A DNA stretch of 24,726 nt from the IMG/VR virus record IMGVR_UViG_3300008448_000604, positions 1 through 24,726 of that record. One strand, 5' to 3'. The notes beneath the pieces were generated by a model that saw nothing but the letters and a program-made list of their open reading frames with translations, searched no databases and was not told where the DNA came from. This DNA comes from a virus. The position numbers and the translations under genes are program-made. Positions 12,017 to 19,901 of the stretch are shown here, piece by piece (the stretch's first letter is position 1; each line of letters begins with the position of its first letter).

Positions 12017-14830
12017 ATGGCAGCTTCATCATACAGATTTGTTTCCCCAGGTGTTCAAGTACAAGAGATTGATAATTCAATTCGTACTTCCGATTCACAA
12101 CAAACAGGTCCAACAGTAATCGGAAGATTTGAAAAAGGTCCAGCAATGCGACCAGTTTATGTTAATTCATTTTCTCAATTTGTACAAACATTCGGCAATC
12201 CAATTGCTGGTAACGATGGTACAGACGTATGGCGTGATGGTAATTATGTAGGACCAACTTATGCTGCTTATGCTGCACAAGCTTGGTTAAGAAACACACC
12301 AGCCCTTAACGTTATTCGTTTGGTTGGTACAGAGCATCCAAACCATACAAATGCCGATGGTGCAAAAGCAGGTTGGGCAACAGCTAATAGCTTTGCAACT
12401 GGTACTGCTGGTGGTGGTGCTTATGGTTTATTCGTTATGCCTTCTGCTTCTGCTGGTACTGCTGTAACTGGAACTCTTGCTGCTATTTGGTACGTTCAAT
12501 CTGGTTCTGTTCAACTTAAAGATTTAACTGATTCCACACAAGGAACAAACTTAGTTGCCAGATCTGTAACTGGTGGTTCTACTGGCGAATTCAGAGCTGT
12601 CATAACAGGACCAAACGGTACTTACGAATCAAACTTTAACTTTGATCCAGCTTCCGACAAATACATTAGAAAAGTATTTAATACAAACCCAATTCTTACA
12701 AACGCTAGAATTACAAGCACAGCCAATCTTGAAGATTACTGGCTTGGTGAAACATTTGAAAGAAACCTTGTAGATGTATTTACAAATCAATCTACTCCAT
12801 ACACACTTTCAAGTGCTGATTGCTACGGTTTAATAACAGCTCTTAAGGGTACACAATACTCACTTGACAATCATCACAAACCAGCACGTTCAGCAAAAAC
12901 TGGTTGGGTAGTTGCACAAGATTTAACAAATAATGCTGCTTCATTCAATCCAGCTAGCCAACAAAAACTATTCAGACTTTCAACTCTTGATGCTGGTGAA
13001 TACGAGCAAAAGAATTACAAAGTATCTATCGGTGACATAAAAGCTCCAACAAATGATTTTGATGATTACGGAACTTTCTCTGTATTTGTAAGAATGTCAA
13101 GCGACAAAGATTCAACAATTAAATTAGTTGAAAGCTGGACAGGTCTAAATCTCAATCCAGCTTCACCAAATTACATTGCTAGAAGAATTGGTGATAAGTA
13201 TGTCGAATGGGATTCAACACAACTAAGATTAAGAGAATACGGTACTTACGCAAATGCTTCCAAATACATTCGCGTTGAAATGAACGATGATGTTGATGCT
13301 GGTAACGTAGATCCAACATTCCTTCCATTCGGTTTCTTCGGACCACCAAAATTCCCATCATTTAGAATAACAAGTGGTTCTAGCCCAACTACCAACGCAC
13401 CTGTTACTGGCGGTTATGGTGGAAGCTACAATACTGCATTCTTCAATTATACAGCAGTTGACATTACAGCCTCACTTACATTCCCATCACTTCCATTGGT
13501 TGTATCAGCTTCTTCTGCTGGCCTTGGCGATCCACGCGATGCATACTTTGGTATCTCAACTGGTATTTCATCTACAAACAACGAATTTACAAAAGGCTAC
13601 TATGATTTAGTAGGAGCACAAGTTTATGACCATGATGCTGTAGTCGGAACTTACTTGGTCGATTCCTTTGTATTCTCTCTTGACGATGTGTCTGGTTCAA
13701 CCGCTACTGGTGTTGGCGCAGTATACGTATCTGGCTCAAGAACAGCAGGTACTTCATTAACTGCTGTAAGCGGTGGTTATCGTGGCGTTCTAAATGCAGG
13801 TTACAATGGCTTTACAATGCCTCTCTCTAATGGTTTTGATGGTTTCGATGTTACAGAAGCAGAACCATTAAATAACTACACACTTTCACAAGGAACTCCT
13901 ACAGAGACAACCGATTACATCTACAACACATACAAGCGTGCTATCGATACATGTGCAGATCCAGAGACATTAGTAACAGACATAATTGCTGTCCCAGGTC
14001 TTACAAATACATCACTTACAAGTCATCTAGTAAGAACCTGCGAAGCTAGAGCAGATGCACTTGCAATTATTGATCTACCAAATGTATACACACCAGAATC
14101 TGAACAATACTACTCAAATAAATCAAGTAGATACGGAACTGTTTCTGATGCTGTAAATGGCATGAGACAAAGAGGACTAAACAGCAGCTACGGCGCAACT
14201 TACTATCCTTGGGTACAAATAAGTGATACTGTAAATAACAGAGTACTTTTCGTACCACCATCAGTTGTAGCCCTTGGTGCTATGTCTTACGGTCAAGCAA
14301 CACAAGAACTTTGGTTTGCTCCAGCAGGCTTCACAAGAGGCGGTTTAACTGAAGGTCGTGGTGGCGTTCCAGTAATAGGCGTAACTGACCGTCTTTCATC
14401 AAAAGACCGTGACGCACTTTACGAAGCTAACATCAATCCAATTGCACAATTCCCAGCAGAAGGCATTGTAATCTTTGGTCAAAAGACTCTTCAAGTTACA
14501 CCATCTGCTCTTGATAGAATCAATGTTCGTAGAATGATGATCTTCGTTAAGAGAGAAATTTCTAAGATTGCATCAACACTTCTATTTGACCAAAACGTAG
14601 ATGTAACTTGGGCAAGATTTACAGGTCAAGTAAATCCATTCCTTGCAACTGTTAAATCAAGATTGGGTCTTACTGACTACCGCGTAATACTTGACAAAAC
14701 CACAACCACACCAGATTTGGTTGACAGAAACATCATGTACGCCAAGATCTTCTTGAAACCAGCAAGAGCAATTGAATTTATTGCAATTGATTTCACAATA
14801 ACTGATTCTGGTGCATCATTTGTTGACTAA
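12017..14830 (+). CDS. gp18: Contractile tail sheath protein (T4 gp18-like)
   Basis: 937 residues, longer than T4 gp18 (659). N-terminus: SPGVQVQEIDNS (~10-21), then TVIGRFEKGPAM and FVQTFGNP. The C-terminal third is the conserved sheath core: NTYKRAIDTCADPETL (~640), ADALAIIDLPNVYTPE, YYPWVQISDTVNNRVLFVPP, ELWFAPAGFTRGGL, LYEANINPIAQFPAEG, VFGQKTL-type strand IFGQKTLQVTPSALDRINVRR, then LLFDQN, VTWARFTGQVNPFL and a final strand pair (ARAIEFIAIDFTI) that would hook onto neighbouring subunits. Residues ~110-600 hold expanded, partly Ser/Gly-rich sequence, presumably one or more surface domains on the outside of the sheath. SD AGGAG lies ten bases before the ATG. Many codons resemble those of the capsid gene, consistent with abundance. 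Sheath contraction drives the tube through the envelope. Confidence 0.95.
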   Translation: MAASSYRFVSPGVQVQEIDNSIRTSDSQQTGPTVIGRFEKGPAMRPVYVNSFSQFVQTFGNPIAGNDGTDVWRDGNYVGPTYAAYAAQAWLRNTPALNVIRLVGTEHPNHTNADGAKAGWATANSFATGTAGGGAYGLFVMPSASAGTAVTGTLAAIWYVQSGSVQLKDLTDSTQGTNLVARSVTGGSTGEFRAVITGPNGTYESNFNFDPASDKYIRKVFNTNPILTNARITSTANLEDYWLGETFERNLVDVFTNQSTPYTLSSADCYGLITALKGTQYSLDNHHKPARSAKTGWVVAQDLTNNAASFNPASQQKLFRLSTLDAGEYEQKNYKVSIGDIKAPTNDFDDYGTFSVFVRMSSDKDSTIKLVESWTGLNLNPASPNYIARRIGDKYVEWDSTQLRLREYGTYANASKYIRVEMNDDVDAGNVDPTFLPFGFFGPPKFPSFRITSGSSPTTNAPVTGGYGGSYNTAFFNYTAVDITASLTFPSLPLVVSASSAGLGDPRDAYFGISTGISSTNNEFTKGYYDLVGAQVYDHDAVVGTYLVDSFVFSLDDVSGSTATGVGAVYVSGSRTAGTSLTAVSGGYRGVLNAGYNGFTMPLSNGFDGFDVTEAEPLNNYTLSQGTPTETTDYIYNTYKRAIDTCADPETLVTDIIAVPGLTNTSLTSHLVRTCEARADALAIIDLPNVYTPESEQYYSNKSSRYGTVSDAVNGMRQRGLNSSYGATYYPWVQISDTVNNRVLFVPPSVVALGAMSYGQATQELWFAPAGFTRGGLTEGRGGVPVIGVTDRLSSKDRDALYEANINPIAQFPAEGIVIFGQKTLQVTPSALDRINVRRMMIFVKREISKIASTLLFDQNVDVTWARFTGQVNPFLATVKSRLGLTDYRVILDKTTTTPDLVDRNIMYAKIFLKPARAIEFIAIDFTITDSGASFVD

Positions 14831-14867: not shown

Positions 14868-15479
14868 ATGGCATTCTGGAATGAAGCTGCGTTAGAGCCA
14901 AAAAGAAAGTTTAAGTTTTTAATTAGATTTGGAAGAGCCTCTGGTGATCTACCATCTTTTATTGCAAAAAAGTGTGATAAACCATCATTTGATGTATCAG
15001 AAGTAGCACATGACTTTCTTGGTCATAAGTTCTATTATCCTGGCAAAGTAACTTGGAAAGAAGTTTCAGCCACAGTAATTGACCCTGCTGGTTCTGGTGG
15101 TGTTGGTGACGAAGATTTAGCTACAATTACAGCACCATCAACTGACGTAACTAAATCTGTTTATGAATTGTTACTTCGTGCTGGTTATCAATCTCCTGTT
15201 GCTGCTGGTTCAGCTATAACAGGTGCTGGTGCTGGTGCTACCTTAAGAACAATGGCAAAAGGAACAGCTACAAGACAATTTGATCAAATTCAAATTATTC
15301 AAATTGATGCAAATGGTAATGCACTTGAAACATGGTTACTTAACAATGCTTGGTTAAAAAGCGTAAACTTTGGTGGTCTTGATTATTCATCAGATGACAT
15401 TAATGAAGTTTCATTTACATTTAGATACGATTGGGCTGATGTTATCGTTGGTTCCTTCGATTCTTCTGTAGAATCTTAA
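14868..15479 (+). CDS. gp19: Tail tube protein (T4 gp19-like)
   Basis: 203 residues (T4 gp19 163). It begins with KRKFKFLIRFGR, followed by FIAKKCDKPSFDV, HKFYYPGKVTWKEVSATVIDP, and ends with LDYSSDDINEVSFTFRYDWADV: the single-domain beta-barrel tube fold with a conserved last strand. An Ala/Gly-rich stretch (~80-125) is an insertion relative to T4. GGAGG nine bases before the ATG is among the strongest SDs here. The subunits form stacked hexameric rings inside the sheath. It directly follows the sheath gene, as in T4 and most contractile systems. Confidence 0.93.
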   Translation: MAFWNEAALEPKRKFKFLIRFGRASGDLPSFIAKKCDKPSFDVSEVAHDFLGHKFYYPGKVTWKEVSATVIDPAGSGGVGDEDLATITAPSTDVTKSVYELLLRAGYQSPVAAGSAITGAGAGATLRTMAKGTATRQFDQIQIIQIDANGNALETWLLNNAWLKSVNFGGLDYSSDDINEVSFTFRYDWADVIVGSFDSSVES

Positions 15480-15491
15480 TAGAGGGTTCTA

Positions 15492-16142
15492 ATGTTCTGG
15501 ACCGATAAAGGTGGTATTGAACTAGTAAAAAAGAACTTATTTACTGCAAAGTTTATTGTTACAAATCAAAACAAACTTGATGAGGTAACTAAAGATAAAA
15601 TAGAAGGCTGGAACGGCACAGGAAATCCAGAAATAGAGAAAAACTTTACATTATTAGTAAAGAAGATTGATGCTCCTTCTATGAACATCGGGTTTGAAAG
15701 AGGCTTGGCAAACAATTATGTTCACTACTTTCAACAGGGTGAGATTAATTGGGAGCCAATAACTGTAACTTTTATTGATGCTATTAGCCTACAGAACAAT
15801 AGACTTCCAAATTGGAAAAAGATTTTTTTTGATTATTCAAATAAATTCTTTAGAATAGATAATAGAACTGGTGTTTTAGACTTACCTATTTTTTGTAATT
15901 TTATTGTTATAGAATCAAAAGTAACTTCATTAAATAATAAAGAAACTGATAGTTTAAAAGAACAATCAAAATTATTATCAACACATTTTTCCATTCATAA
16001 TCCAAGAATAACAAAAATCTCTTTTGGTTCATATGACTACGCTTCAGATGATGCAAATGAGATTACTGTGACATTTATACCAGAATGGTGTAGTTATGAT
16101 AATTCAATAGATGAAATAAAAGACAACGCACCAAATTTATAA
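15492..16142 (+). CDS. Second tail-tube-fold protein (gp19 paralogue)
   Basis: 216 residues. It shares the tube landmarks with the preceding gene: ENFTLLV-type strand NFTLLVKKIDAPSMNI, HYFQQGEINWEPITVTFIDA (matching HKFYYPGKVTWKEVSATVIDP) and SYDYASDDANEITVTFIPEW (matching LDYSSDDINEVSFTFRYDW). The N-terminus (MFWTDKGGIELVKKNLFTAKFIV) also parallels MAFWNEAALEPKRKFKFLI. Codons are poorer in C-ending types than in the tube gene, suggesting few copies. A tube-fold protein of low abundance is likely a specialised ring such as a tube initiator at the baseplate (the role of gp54/gp48 in T4) or an end ring; which one cannot be decided here. A GAGGG-type SD lies just before the ATG, 12 bases after the tube stop. 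Confidence 0.75.
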   Translation: MFWTDKGGIELVKKNLFTAKFIVTNQNKLDEVTKDKIEGWNGTGNPEIEKNFTLLVKKIDAPSMNIGFERGLANNYVHYFQQGEINWEPITVTFIDAISLQNNRLPNWKKIFFDYSNKFFRIDNRTGVLDLPIFCNFIVIESKVTSLNNKETDSLKEQSKLLSTHFSIHNPRITKISFGSYDYASDDANEITVTFIPEWCSYDNSIDEIKDNAPNL

Positions 16143-16161: not shown

Positions 16162-17013
16162 ATGAGAAATAACCTAGATAGATTAGGGTTAGAAAATAAC
16201 AAACCCCAAGATGATAATGCAAGTATCACAAGCACTTTAACCTTTGTAGTGCCAACAGAGATTGTAGACCTTCCATCAAAAGGAATGTTCTATCCACCAG
16301 AACATCCATTACATGGAAAAGAAACAATTGAAATTAGATACATGACTGCAAAAGATGAAGATACATTAACAAATCAATCTCTTCTTAAGAAAGGTGTTGC
16401 ATTAGAAAAAGTACTTCAAGACATAGTAATTGATAAAAGTATAAAGATTGATACATTATTGCTTGGTGACAAGAACGCAATCATAGTAGCAGCAAGAAAA
16501 TCAGCTTATGGTGCAGAGTATGAAACAAAAATAACTTGCCCATCTTGTGGTAAACAACAACAATATGAATTTGATCTTAACAACTGTAACATTAAAGAAC
16601 CAGTAGATTTAGATTCATTGAGCGATATGGGTATTAACGTAACTGATAGAGGAACTTTCATTACTCAATTACCTATTTCAAAGTTCAATGTTGAACTAAG
16701 ATTACTAACTGGTAAAGACGAATTGTTCCTTTCTCAAAAAACAAGAGAAGCACAACAAAGTAAAAAAGAAATAGATTCTCTACTTTCATTGCAATTAAGA
16801 ATGATGGTTAATTCAATTAATGATGTAACTGATCCTAAACTAATAACAGAAGCAGTTTCAATGCTTCCTGCAAGAGATTCTATCAAACTAAGACATACTT
16901 ATAAAACAGTTGCACCATCTTTAGATTTGTCTCACGATTTCCAATGTAGAGCTTGTTCAGAGGAAACGAGATTGGAGGTTCCGTTTACAGCGGACTTTTT
17001 TTGGCCTAAGTGA
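16162..17013 (+). CDS. Baseplate-hub / tail assembly chaperone (T4 gp26-like), zero-frame product
   Basis: 283 residues. Features I associate with the T4 gp26-type family: VDLPSKGMFYPPEHPLHG (~36-53), EIRYMTAKDEDTLTNQSLLKKG (~57-78), LLLGDKNAIIVAARKSAYGAEY (~100-121), then CPSC (~127-130). A second Cys pair, CRAC (~261-264), lies near the C-terminus, so the protein may bind zinc. It stands between tube and tape-measure genes, where contractile and siphophages keep the tail assembly chaperones that coat the tape measure. The frame ends only four codons after a T7 run; an open frame without a start codon begins there in the +1 frame (next entries). The chaperone role is inferred from position and frameshift layout; family call is moderately sure. 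SD is weak. Confidence 0.7.
   Translation: MRNNLDRLGLENNKPQDDNASITSTLTFVVPTEIVDLPSKGMFYPPEHPLHGKETIEIRYMTAKDEDTLTNQSLLKKGVALEKVLQDIVIDKSIKIDTLLLGDKNAIIVAARKSAYGAEYETKITCPSCGKQQQYEFDLNNCNIKEPVDLDSLSDMGINVTDRGTFITQLPISKFNVELRLLTGKDELFLSQKTREAQQSKKEIDSLLSLQLRMMVNSINDVTDPKLITEAVSMLPARDSIKLRHTYKTVAPSLDLSHDFQCRACSEETRLEVPFTADFFWPK
16996..17002 (+). promoter_or_regulatory. Candidate programmed frameshift site (T7), +1 or -2
   Basis: Zero-frame codons are GAC TTT TTT TGG CCT AAG TGA. A tRNA-Phe on the second TTT can slip forward one base and keep perfect TTT pairing, after which GGC CTA AGT is read in the +1 frame. A -2 shift or polymerase slippage on seven Ts would reach the same frame. A run of this length just before the stop of a tail chaperone gene is the classic position for such a shift. 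Confidence 0.6.
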
Positions 17014-17188
17014 GAATTATCAAAAACAAGTTTATGAACAATTTTTCATACTAAAGTATCATGGTGGTTGGTCATTTATAGAAGCATACAATCTTCCTAT
17101 TGGTCTTAGGATGTGGTTTATTGAAAGGCTTGCTAAACAAATCAAAGATGAATCAGAAGCTATGGAAAAAGCATCAAAGAAGAAATAA
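17003..17188 (+). CDS. Frameshift-encoded C-terminal extension of the tail assembly chaperone
   Basis: Sixty-one codons in the +1 frame relative to the gp26-like gene, ending TAA at 17186-17188: GLSENYQKQVYEQFFILKYH then GGWSFIEAYNLPIGLRMWFI and a charged helical tail (ERLAKQIKDESEAMEKASKKK). The composition is that of a real helical protein. The frame is open from 16925, but contains no ATG, GTG or TTG before an internal ATG at 17111, which would leave just 25 residues. The extension can therefore hardly be translated except as a fusion of about 341 residues through the T7 site. In T4 the gene after 26 is 51, a hub-assembly chaperone, so a gp51-like role is possible. The organisation parallels lambda G/GT and P2 E/E+E'. 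A terminator starts two bases after its stop. Confidence 0.65.
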   Translation, partial: GLSENYQKQVYEQFFILKYHGGWSFIEAYNLPIGLRMWFIERLAKQIKDESEAMEKASKKK

Positions 17189-17190
17189 TT

Positions 17191-17223
17191 GAAAACGGGC
17201 TTAACGCTCGTTTTCTTTTTTTT
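17191..17223 (+). terminator. Intrinsic terminator after chaperone extension
   Basis: GAAAACGGGC (17191-17200) pairs with GCTCGTTTTC (17206-17215), ten base pairs including one G-U, loop TTAAC, followed by eight Ts. It ends 16 bases before the next ATG. Confidence 0.9.
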
Positions 17224-17239
17224 ATTACTAATTAATAAC

Positions 17240-17668
17240 ATGATAAACAATAAAATTAATGAAGGAAAATTTGTTGATGCTTTTAGTAGACTAGCACAAT
17301 CATTTAATGTACGTAAAAAACCACAACAAACTACTACTACAAAAGTACAACAACAACCAGTTCAGCAAAACCAACCAGTTCAACAAAACCAACCAGAACC
17401 AACACAGGTTCCTTCTGGTTGGAATCCAAAAAAAGGAACTGAAGTAAAATTAAAAAATGTTCCATACAGAGTATCAAAAAATGGAAATTGGGTTATTGCT
17501 GATAAAACTGGTAATGCAGTTGATAAAAGAAATTTAAATTTATTAAATGCTTTGAATCTTGAAGCTTATAAAGTTGAATGGCGACAACAAAATTCTAATA
17601 AAATACCAACTACTATTAGTGAATCATTAGTACTTCGTTGGAAAGAATTAGCAGGAATTAGAGGTTAA
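17240..17668 (+). CDS. Small Q/P-rich protein of unknown function before the tape measure
   Basis: 142 residues from ATG 17240; the in-frame TTG at 17189 is rejected because it would be translated through the terminator hairpin. Three parts: a short helical N-terminus (NEGKFVDAFSRLAQSF), a Lys/Gln/Pro/Thr-rich linker (~25-62) encoded partly by an 18-base tandem repeat, and a compact C-terminal part (GTEVKLKNVPYRVSKNGNWV ... NLLNALNLEAYKVEW) ending SLVLRWKELAGIRG. That ending resembles the scaffold's VIDRMQRLAGIKNK. No SD is evident. The gene sits between a terminator and the tape measure, which begins four bases after its stop, like a later insertion. No function is recognised; a minor virion or head-internal protein is one possibility. 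Confidence 0.65.
   Translation: MINNKINEGKFVDAFSRLAQSFNVRKKPQQTTTTKVQQQPVQQNQPVQQNQPEPTQVPSGWNPKKGTEVKLKNVPYRVSKNGNWVIADKTGNAVDKRNLNLLNALNLEAYKVEWRQQNSNKIPTTISESLVLRWKELAGIRG
17354..17396 (+). repeat. 18-base tandem repeat, 2.4 copies
   Basis: CAACCAGTTCAGCAAAAC, then CAACCAGTTCAACAAAAC, then CAACCAG. The copies differ at one base and encode the QNQPVQ units of the linker; the array is likely variable in length between relatives. Confidence 0.9.
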
Positions 17669-17672
17669 TTAA

Positions 17673-19901
17673 ATGGCAGTTGAAGATTCAGTAACGGCGA
17701 TTGCTAGATTAACAGCAAGAGTAGAGGAACTTATAGCCCGTGGTGTTTCTGACGATGATACAAGAATAACAGATCTTCGTACTGCAATAGAAGCTCATAA
17801 TGCTCGCATGAGAGAATCTTTAGAGCTACAAGAAAAAAGAAACAGATTATTACAAATAGAATTAGATCTATTAGAAAAAAATAAAAGTTTTTATAAAGAA
17901 AAAAATGAAAGTTTAGATGCTTTTATTAGAAAAGAAAAAATAGAATTAGATTTAAATGAAGATTTTGGTCAAAAAAAATTATTTGAACTAAGAAAAGAAG
18001 CAGAATTAAAAGAAGCTAATAGAGAAACAGATGAAGAAGCATATCAACTTGCATTAGATGCATTAGCGGAAGCTCAAAAACGTTATACAATAAGAGAAAA
18101 AGAATTAGAAATAGCTAAACAAATTGGTGATGAAACAAAAAAGATGTTGGGAAGTACCTTTGGTATTTCTACTAAATGGAAAGACACAATTTGGGGTAAA
18201 CTAGGAGATAAAGAATCAGATTTCAAAACTAACATTACAGCAATTGGCAAATCTTTTAGTGATACATTTACAGGAGCAAACATTGCTGGTTCATTGTTAT
18301 TTAAAGGTATAGAAGAAACAATGAAAGCATTTACTCAGTATGATGCTGCTTCTGCTTCAATAGCTAAAGTTGCAGGAGATAATGAAAGATTACAAAATGT
18401 TCTTCAAAATACTGCAAGAGGTGCAACAGCTTATGGTATTTCATTTGCTGAAGCTGGTAAAGCTATTGAAGGACTTTACACAGAACTTAATACTTTCTCT
18501 ACATTATCTCAAAAAGTACAAGAACAGCTTACAGTCTCAACAGCTAAATTAGAAAAGCTTGGAATTTCCTCTCAACAAAGCGCAAAACAAATTGCAACAC
18601 TAACTCAAATAATGGGTATGACAGAAGTTCAAGCAGGTAAAACAGCAGAACAATTAGCTGGTTTTGCTTTGGCTATTGGAAAGTCTCCTCAACAAGTAGC
18701 CTCTGATTTTGCTGGTGCTTCCGACAGATTGGGAGCATATGGTAATAAAATGATTGATGTATTTAAAAATCTTGAAACACAATCAAAAGGAACTGGTGTT
18801 GCTCTAAATGATCTTCTTAGTTTAACAGAGAAGTTTCAAACATTTGAAGGTGCCGCTTCTGCTGCTGGTAAACTTAATGCTGCTCTTGGTGGTGGTTTCG
18901 TTAATGCTATGGAACTGCTTGAGGCATCTTCAGAAGATCCATCAAAAGCAATTGATTTGTTAAGAACAAGATTGAATGATGCTGGTTTAGCTTTTGATCA
19001 ATTGTCTTTCTATGAGAAAAAATTGATAGCTGATGCTGGTGGTTTCAAAACTGTTGAAGAGGCAAGTCGTATTTTATCAATGACAAATGCCGAGGCAGAA
19101 AGAGCAGCCAAAGCAGATGCTGAAAGAGCAGCACAACAAGAATTGGTGAATGACGCAATTCAAAGATCAATTCCAATTCAACAAAAACTTGAATTAATAA
19201 TGGCTAATCTAGCTATCGCAATGGGGCCAGTTGTTGAAGTAATAAGTGATCTTTTTTCTCTATTTGCTATGTTTGTAGATAGTACTATTGGTAAAGTTAT
19301 TATTGGAATTTTGGTAGCTATTGGTATAGCTGCACTTGCTACTAGCTCACCTCTTCTTGCTATTGCAGCAGCCATTTATGGAGTAGCAAAAGCTTTTGAA
19401 TGGTTACATGATACTTTACTAGTTCCACATTCTCCAGTTCTATTTGATTCTCTACTTTCAATGCCAAAAATCTTTGGTGGTATGGCTTCTTCTTTAGGTG
19501 GATTTGATGGACAATTAAATGGAACATTAAATAATTTTGAAAAATTTGAGAAGTCAAGCAAGAGTATAGCATCAAGTCTTGAAACTTTACCAGAGTCTAT
19601 TTCTTTTACAACTCCTCAATTGGGTAAGTTAAATTCAAATATGGAAGTTACTAACAAAATAACAGATGCTACAAAACAATCTGTAGATGTAATAAATAAT
19701 TTGAATACAGATAAAGCTAAAATGTTAGTAAATGTTATGTCACCACAAACACCAAATGTTACTGTGACACCTACAATCAATCAACCAGCACCAGAAGTTA
19801 AAGTTTACTTAGGTAACGAACCAGTGAAGAACATTGTAAACAAAGTTATGAATGGTGGAAGCAATTTGGCACCACAAACATTAGGAGTACCAATTAGATA
19901 A
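17673..19901 (+). CDS. Tail tape measure protein
   Basis: 742 residues. The first ~170 are strongly charged and helical, with long predicted coiled coil (ELQEKRNRLLQIELDLLEKN, RYTIREKELEIAKQ). The centre (~190-480) is Ala/Gly/Gln-rich helical sequence (e.g. GISSQQSAKQIATLTQIMG). A hydrophobic zone at ~503-575 contains VIIGILVAIGIAALA and LLAIAAAIYGVAKAF, typical of tape measures that enter the host membrane. The C-terminus (VTVTPTINQPAPEVKVYLGN) is an extended segment likely bound to the baseplate. Using the usual ~0.15 nm per residue, the tail would be about 110 nm. Position after tube and chaperone genes and before the baseplate genes agrees. No strong SD; the stop overlaps the next ATG (TAATG). 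Confidence 0.85.
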   Translation: MAVEDSVTAIARLTARVEELIARGVSDDDTRITDLRTAIEAHNARMRESLELQEKRNRLLQIELDLLEKNKSFYKEKNESLDAFIRKEKIELDLNEDFGQKKLFELRKEAELKEANRETDEEAYQLALDALAEAQKRYTIREKELEIAKQIGDETKKMLGSTFGISTKWKDTIWGKLGDKESDFKTNITAIGKSFSDTFTGANIAGSLLFKGIEETMKAFTQYDAASASIAKVAGDNERLQNVLQNTARGATAYGISFAEAGKAIEGLYTELNTFSTLSQKVQEQLTVSTAKLEKLGISSQQSAKQIATLTQIMGMTEVQAGKTAEQLAGFALAIGKSPQQVASDFAGASDRLGAYGNKMIDVFKNLETQSKGTGVALNDLLSLTEKFQTFEGAASAAGKLNAALGGGFVNAMELLEASSEDPSKAIDLLRTRLNDAGLAFDQLSFYEKKLIADAGGFKTVEEASRILSMTNAEAERAAKADAERAAQQELVNDAIQRSIPIQQKLELIMANLAIAMGPVVEVISDLFSLFAMFVDSTIGKVIIGILVAIGIAALATSSPLLAIAAAIYGVAKAFEWLHDTLLVPHSPVLFDSLLSMPKIFGGMASSLGGFDGQLNGTLNNFEKFEKSSKSIASSLETLPESISFTTPQLGKLNSNMEVTNKITDATKQSVDVINNLNTDKAKMLVNVMSPQTPNVTVTPTINQPAPEVKVYLGNEPVKNIVNKVMNGGSNLAPQTLGVPIR

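Follow-up and report, generated by a model that had tools for sequence, protein, structure and literature searches.

A gp26-like tail chaperone gene of T4-type phages with a conserved site for probable +1 frameshifting into a gp51-like domain

Introduction

The viral DNA analyzed here, a stretch of 24,726 nucleotides (positions 1 to 24,726 of IMG/VR record IMGVR_UViG_3300008448_000604; hereafter the window), contains a gene resembling T4 gene 26 that ends a few codons after a run of seven T residues, and a second frame, offset by +1 and devoid of an early start codon, continues past its stop in the direction of the tape-measure region. This raises the question of whether the two frames are translated into one protein and, if so, what moves translation from one into the other.

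Results

Two overlapping frames at the end of a gp26-like gene

The features that define the locus are as follows:

14868 to 16142, plus strand: two consecutive tail-tube-like genes, 14868-15479 and 15492-16142
16162 to 17013, plus strand: gp26-like tail/baseplate-hub assembly chaperone, short form of 283 aa
16162 to 17188, plus strand: predicted frameshift fusion, long form of 341 aa
16996 to 17002, plus strand: slip site T7, zero-frame TTT TTT T
17002 to 17013, plus strand: zero-frame continuation TGG CCT AAG TGA, a possible slow A-site Trp codon and then the gp26 stop
17003 to 17188, plus strand: +1-frame C-terminal extension (GLSENYQKQVYEQFF...KKK), 61 codons and a stop, gp51-like three-helix domain
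17673 to 19901, plus strand: large ORF of 742 aa in the tape-measure position, assigned by position only

The ORF at 16162-17013 matched the T4_baseplate family PF12322 (E=2.6e-15; 57.2 bits, above the curated cut-off of 24.5) and phrog_150 (E=5.3e-19), and its fold resembled viral gp26 models such as that of SP-15 (E=5e-18). When gp26 and the extension were folded separately, no solved structure was similar to either by fold (best E=1.5) or by sequence; given this lack of a fold relation to known tail chaperones, we do not claim membership by descent in the G/GT chaperones and assign function by analogy. The protein also carries two widely spaced CxxC motifs (residues 123-126 and 264-267), kept in relatives, which could form one zinc site.

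The gp26 frame ends GAC TTT TTT TGG CCT AAG TGA with its TGA at 17011-17013, and the +1 frame stays open between 16925 and 17185 (stop 17186-17188) with its earliest ATG, GTG or TTG at 17111, within the conserved domain, both as an earlier note on this DNA had read them. Its estimate of a fusion of about 341 residues was likewise accurate, since translation with one +1 step at the slip yields exactly 341 aa. Stop readthrough can be ruled out because the extension is out of frame with the TGA, and a -1 reading of the slip (TTG GCC TAA) meets a stop within three codons, which departs from canonical -1 frameshifting. When the downstream sequence was shuffled, the +1 frame remained open that far beyond the gp26 stop in 0.3% of shuffles, and conservation across relatives provides a stronger test than these shuffles. 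The arrangement is far from chance.

The gene lies between the tube-like genes (phrog_4542, E=1.2e-20 and 8.3e-10) and the ORF in the tape-measure position, which is the placement of G/GT chaperones, and as in those chaperones a start-less second ORF lies in another frame that a shift near the first stop would join. The tape-measure-position ORF itself matched no family.

Several further features of the neighborhood were observed. One of the two tail-tube-like genes may encode a terminator or an initiator of the tube. A strong intrinsic-terminator-like hairpin (17191-17215; GAAAACGGGCTTAACGCTCGTTTTC then T8) follows directly on the extension, ahead of the tape-measure region, and a Q/P-rich ORF of 142 aa (17240-17668) with a VQQNQP-like repeat and no solid family match lies between the chaperone and the tape measure. 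Upstream, an unusually large tail sheath of 937 aa (12017-14830) has a long stretch ahead of its subtilisin-like domain.

The site, the offset and the extension are conserved

An IMG/VR scan with gp26 recovered 80 relatives of 45-98% identity, all of which keep the site and the offset; one scan peptide, PFTADFFW, was back-translated degenerately, so TTT was not imposed by that alone. The earlier note had proposed comparing relatives for the site and its frame offset, and all 66 distinct loci, counting that of the window, kept both together with the domain. The site reads TTTTTTTGG in 60 of these, TTTCTTTGG in 3 and TTCTTTTGG in 3, the TGG is invariant, and the gp26 stop always falls 3-4 codons past the slip. 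Codon choice is nearly frozen at the GAG of the Shine-Dalgarno-like (SD) element described below, at GAC and at both Phe codons; TTT makes up 76% of Phe codons elsewhere in gp26, and UUU-Y at the slip is partly forced by the Phe-Phe codons. Among named isolates, Microcystis phage Mel-JY01 and Flavobacterium phage immuto lie nearest to the large environmental clade that contains the window; the label "T4-type phage" applies to it in a broad sense only.

The extension is conserved more strongly than the gene that precedes it. Its dN/dS was 0.07, compared with 0.18 for gp26, indicating strong purifying selection, and identity averaged over divergent pairs was 68% for the extension and 49% for gp26. 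The AlphaFold model of the extension comprises three helices with a pLDDT of 92, and an FGLx[DN]xY motif is conserved from the slip onward. Given this conservation, the low dN/dS and the confident three-helix fold, the extension is very likely a translated domain. Searched alone against the phage collection, it gave one usable match only. A candidate link to DUF6760 (PF20546) was dropped because its E values of 0.058 and 0.17 were not significant. Comparison of sequences thus strongly supports the programmed +1 fusion that the earlier note had put forward, with the two frames, the site, the offset, the upstream signals and the domain all recurring across relatives.

A Shine-Dalgarno-like sequence and a hairpin precede the slip

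Two elements within the 3' end of gp26 lie directly upstream of the slip site:

16974 to 16979, plus strand: internal Shine-Dalgarno-like GGAGGU inside gp26
16980 to 16994, plus strand: mini-hairpin UCCGU-UUACA-GCGGA between the SD and the slip

Of 55 distinct sites in the clade, 52 contain GGAGG; its usual distance to the first Phe codon is 16 nt, and in a few sites it lies 6 nt further upstream. The Glu codon at -9 is always GAG. By synonymous sampling GGAGG was observed in 30 of 38 sequences against 7.9 expected, and in the window's clade the hairpin region had a mean MFE about 3.7 kcal/mol below that of synonymous variants, figures that are not formal probabilities as related sequences are non-independent. 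Elsewhere along gp26, 27 of 28 folding segments stayed within about +/-0.5, and the one exception (-0.97) overlaps the hairpin. Several genes of the window carry SD sequences, and its host should therefore read GGAGGU.

The hairpin is a selected element whose effect is strong only in the window's clade; in the immuto and Mel-JY01 groups the effect amounts to about -1.2, and cyanophages show none. The hairpin takes different forms, UCCGU/GCGGA in some phages and GCCC-UUCG-GGGC in others, and a test for covariation in a fixed register did not reach significance, probably owing to register differences among clades.

Related phages reach the extension in other ways

Named phages and further scans brought the comparison to 368 loci, among which the +1 offset recurs in the WIN, immuto, Mel-JY01, LR756508, SP-15, GXN1 and BRock groups; scans with the SP-15 and PhiW-14 gp26 gave no new relatives. 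Sites in the immuto group read TTTCTTTGG, TTTTTTTGG, TTTCTATGG and TTTCTTTAC, and LR756508 relatives carry TTCTTTTGG with the +1 offset, which is shared by Mel-JY01 and about 60 relatives. Two groups more distant than the close relatives thus retain both site and offset even though their T runs are interrupted (TTTCTTTGG, TTCTTTTGG, TTTCTATGG). The junctions of SP-15 and LIS04 (TTT TTT CAC / AGT), GXN1 (TTT CGT) and BRock (TTT CGC) are likewise +1, and a CTT TGG C slip was found in some relatives. In every classified +1 locus T or C comes directly after a zero-frame UUU, with the exception of two immuto relatives, L363 and L368, in which UUU-Y is lost (TTC TTG TAT and TTC CTT TGG) and the extension has moved to a different frame with its own ATG just past the gp26 stop. 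These two loci act as a natural control.

In 84 cyanophage-type loci the extension instead lies in the -1 frame after T_TTT_TTC/A/T. The -1 arrangement was also found in S-SM1, MED4-213, Melnitz-2, C48C1, ACP17, OLIVR5, PhiW-14 and nACB2 and in the jumbo phages Paride, Atu_ph07 and Munch, such that its users comprise cyanophage, other T4-like and some jumbo relatives, at T_TTT_TTY. Several records list this -1 extension as a gp51 ORF, "baseplate hub assembly catalyst". The +1 and -1 extensions look homologous at the profile level (hhalign probability 94, E=1e-7), and three -1 jumbo phages (L089, L090 and L091) nevertheless fall near the +1 half of the gp26 tree, which suggests a switch of shift direction.

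A third arrangement, a TAATG stop-start overlap, was found in the Ackermannviridae VAP7 and Ds16CZ, Vibrio phage K362 and the huge phage LR756511. The earlier note had held that relatives encoding the extension with its own start would count against a frameshift; besides these phages and L363 and L368, there were none. In Stenotrophomonas phage IME-SM1 (L261, 1492-2334) gp26 runs about 30 codons past the expected junction, and the extension was not recognized there in any frame.

T4 gp51 resembles the long form

T4 encodes exactly two PF12322 proteins, gp26 and gp51, from divergent neighboring genes. Residues 1-201 of T4 gp51 match PF12322 (E=3.9e-52), residues 3-248 match phrog_150, and residues 147-246 match phrog_634, the cyanophage gp51 family; against the -1 fusion of C48C1, gp51 aligned nearly end-to-end by BLAST (E=5e-12 in a small set). 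The profile of the +1 extension compared directly with T4 gp51 gave no match (E=0.82), and the two connect via the -1 extensions.

From these matches T4 gp51 is, by sequence, gp26-like and continues in frame into the extension. Since gp51 matches both PF12322 and the extension family and aligns with a -1 fusion, it is organized like the long form, and gp26 like the short one, and T4 genes 26 and 51 look like the two forms held as paralogues. The suggestion in the earlier note that these genes are split counterparts is therefore right in spirit, except that gp51 is not the extension alone. In the gp26 tree T4 gp26 groups with gp51 (99/71), and the date of the duplication is unsure because both are long branches. 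The likeness of T4 to the present locus lies in this pairing of forms; the difference is that T4 uses two separate divergent genes and no frameshift. A 2016 review (PMC5009743) calls T4 the exception to G/GT frameshifting, and two separate genes may explain how T4 manages without it. In the open-access literature we found no paper linking T4 26/51 with short and long forms; gp26 and gp51 already share one Pfam family, so paralogy itself is implicit in PF12322. Homologous -1 shifting in cyanophages and the in-frame gp51 of T4 suggest that the fusion is a genuine product.

T4-type phages would then have four routes to the extension: a +1 shift, a -1 shift, reinitiation at TAATG and, in T4, duplication into 26 and 51. 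We propose, with somewhat less than even confidence, both that GGAGGU, the hairpin and UUU-UUU-UGG act as one composite +1 stimulator and that the gp26 junction has switched repeatedly among these four routes.

Probable ribosomal +1 frameshifting and its alternatives

Judged by these comparisons, the fusion of gp26 to the extension is very probably real, and ribosomal +1 frameshifting probably makes it. Most ribosomes would reach the TGA at 17011 and release the 283-aa short form, and a minority would shift by +1 at UUU UUU U to complete the 341-aa long form with its gp51-like domain. Peptidyl-tRNA-Phe, with the Trp codon UGG waiting at the A site, would slip from UUU to the overlapping UUU, GGC being read next; in relatives tRNA-Phe would slip from UUU to UUU or UUC. 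UUU-Y is prone to shift in E. coli, and frameshifting at UUU-pyrimidine was reportedly described by Schwartz and Curran in 1997 and by Fu and Parker in 1994. The GGAGGU inside gp26 probably stimulates the shift; at 16 nt it is too far by linear distance, and we infer that the hairpin shortens the SD spacing, as it could fold the spacer to about 2-5 nt, which approaches the tight spacing at RF2 (prfB). The two forms are assigned roles by analogy to lambda gpG/gpGT: the tape measure would be coated by the short one, and the additional domain of the long one would recruit the tube or hub. PMC7230728 cites +1 shifting at UUU_CGN in influenza A and amalgaviruses.

The main rival, named already in the earlier note, is slippage of RNA polymerase, stimulated by the nascent hairpin, whereby some mRNAs would carry six U instead of seven and ordinary translation would yield the 341-aa fusion. 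It keeps this standing because the hairpin precedes T7, ending 0-4 nt (mostly 1) before the run and scoring, together with T7, as terminator-like; the run is intact in 33 of 38 distinct clade site sequences, and according to PMC5009743 a stem-loop beside a slippery run makes the polymerase drop one residue in a Roseiflexus IS. However, the SD, the hairpin and the frame are retained at all five clade sites whose run is interrupted (T3CT3 or TTCT4), T3CT3 occurs at many immuto-type sites, and slippage would leave the conserved GGAGGU unexplained. As 35 immuto-type loci have TTTCTTTGG and the broken-run clade sites retain both signals, the homopolymer is not needed. We thus regard the polymerase as an unlikely agent of the shift and the ribosome as the probable one.

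The broken T runs argue against simple polymerase slippage and also against -2 ribosomal frameshifting as in phage Mu, which the earlier note had kept as an alternative. T7 would let tRNA-Phe re-pair two bases back and enter the same frame with one extra Phe; at TTC TTT TGG (L038, L045, L063 and nine LR756508-like loci), however, tRNA-Phe would sit on UCU with a middle-base mismatch, and pairing is also poor at TTT CTA TGG, making a -2 shift very improbable. Slightly less credible still is separate synthesis of the extension, from a start codon of its own or through reinitiation beyond the end of gp26. The TAATG phages and the ATG of L363 and L368 demonstrate such arrangements and GGAGGU could serve as a ribosome-binding site, but the first start codon of the window falls inside the domain, conservation of FGLx[DN]xY begins at the slip itself, and about half of the +1 relatives have an ATG, GTG or TTG in that frame no more than 8-10 codons from the slip, though at no single conserved position. 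Homopolymers of seven are error-prone in principle, but a sequencing or assembly error or pseudogene decay, the read error that the earlier note had allowed for, is already refuted by the breadth of conservation, the offset being common to hundreds of metagenome contigs and named isolate genomes and the extension being under the purifying selection described above, and its probability is negligible.

Discussion

If ribosomal +1 frameshifting and the T4 parallel are true, gp51 gains a testable role as the T4 counterpart of the long GT form, T4 would no longer be an exception to G/GT frameshifting, and many cyanophage "gp51" genes would be re-annotated as frameshift extensions. The +1 sites known from viruses of bacteria would also gain a well-conserved member, with a stimulator of SD and hairpin that looks new. 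What is new here is the SD and hairpin of the clade, the -1 fusion in cyanophage, T4-like and jumbo relatives, the TAATG overlap in Ackermannviridae and the reading of gp51 as a long form.

The tail assembly chaperones gpG and gpGT of phage lambda, reportedly made by a -1 frameshift according to Xu, Hendrix and Duda in 2004, resemble the present locus in the position of the gene between tail tube and tape measure and in the gain of a C-terminal domain through a frameshift shortly ahead of the stop. In the window, however, the shift would be +1 and the chaperone belongs to the gp26/PF12322 family of contractile T4-type tails. Cyanophages (Kyanoviridae) have the same chaperone in the same place with a homologous extension, but differ in their -1 offset, their canonical T_TTT_TTY heptamer and the annotation of the downstream ORF as a separate gene.

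PMC7230728 and PMC5009743 propose a +1 shift for the tail chaperones of the HF1 group and of HSTV-2, again between the tube and tape-measure genes of a myovirus. The HF1-group slip given in the former is TTT-CGC, UUU followed by a pyrimidine, and BRock and GXN1 share this UUU_CGN form. These haloviruses are likened to the window by site and position; their hosts are archaeal, and we saw no report of an SD with a hairpin for them.

In the stimulatory signals, a close likeness is the autoregulatory +1 frameshift of RF2 (prfB), where at CUU UGA C the P-site tRNA re-pairs from CUU, as it would here from UUU, to UUU ahead of a slow A-site codon and downstream of an internal SD. The window differs in that the A-site codon UGG is a sense codon rather than a stop, that a hairpin lies between the slip and a distant SD, which would match the RF2-like spacing of about 3 nt only if the hairpin folds the spacer, and that the shift is not obviously regulatory. 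The Roseiflexus IS likewise has a nascent hairpin directly before its slippery run and a +1-frame product (PMC5009743), whereas among the present loci the run is often broken and an SD is conserved. By analogy, a striking parallel, and one in the same place, is the split ribosome-binding site of T4 genes 26-25, in which the 3' end of gene 26 carries an SD and, in the spacer, a hairpin that shortens the distance from the SD to its site (PMC3014915); the T4 element starts gene 25, whereas that of the window is followed by a slip site and no start codon.
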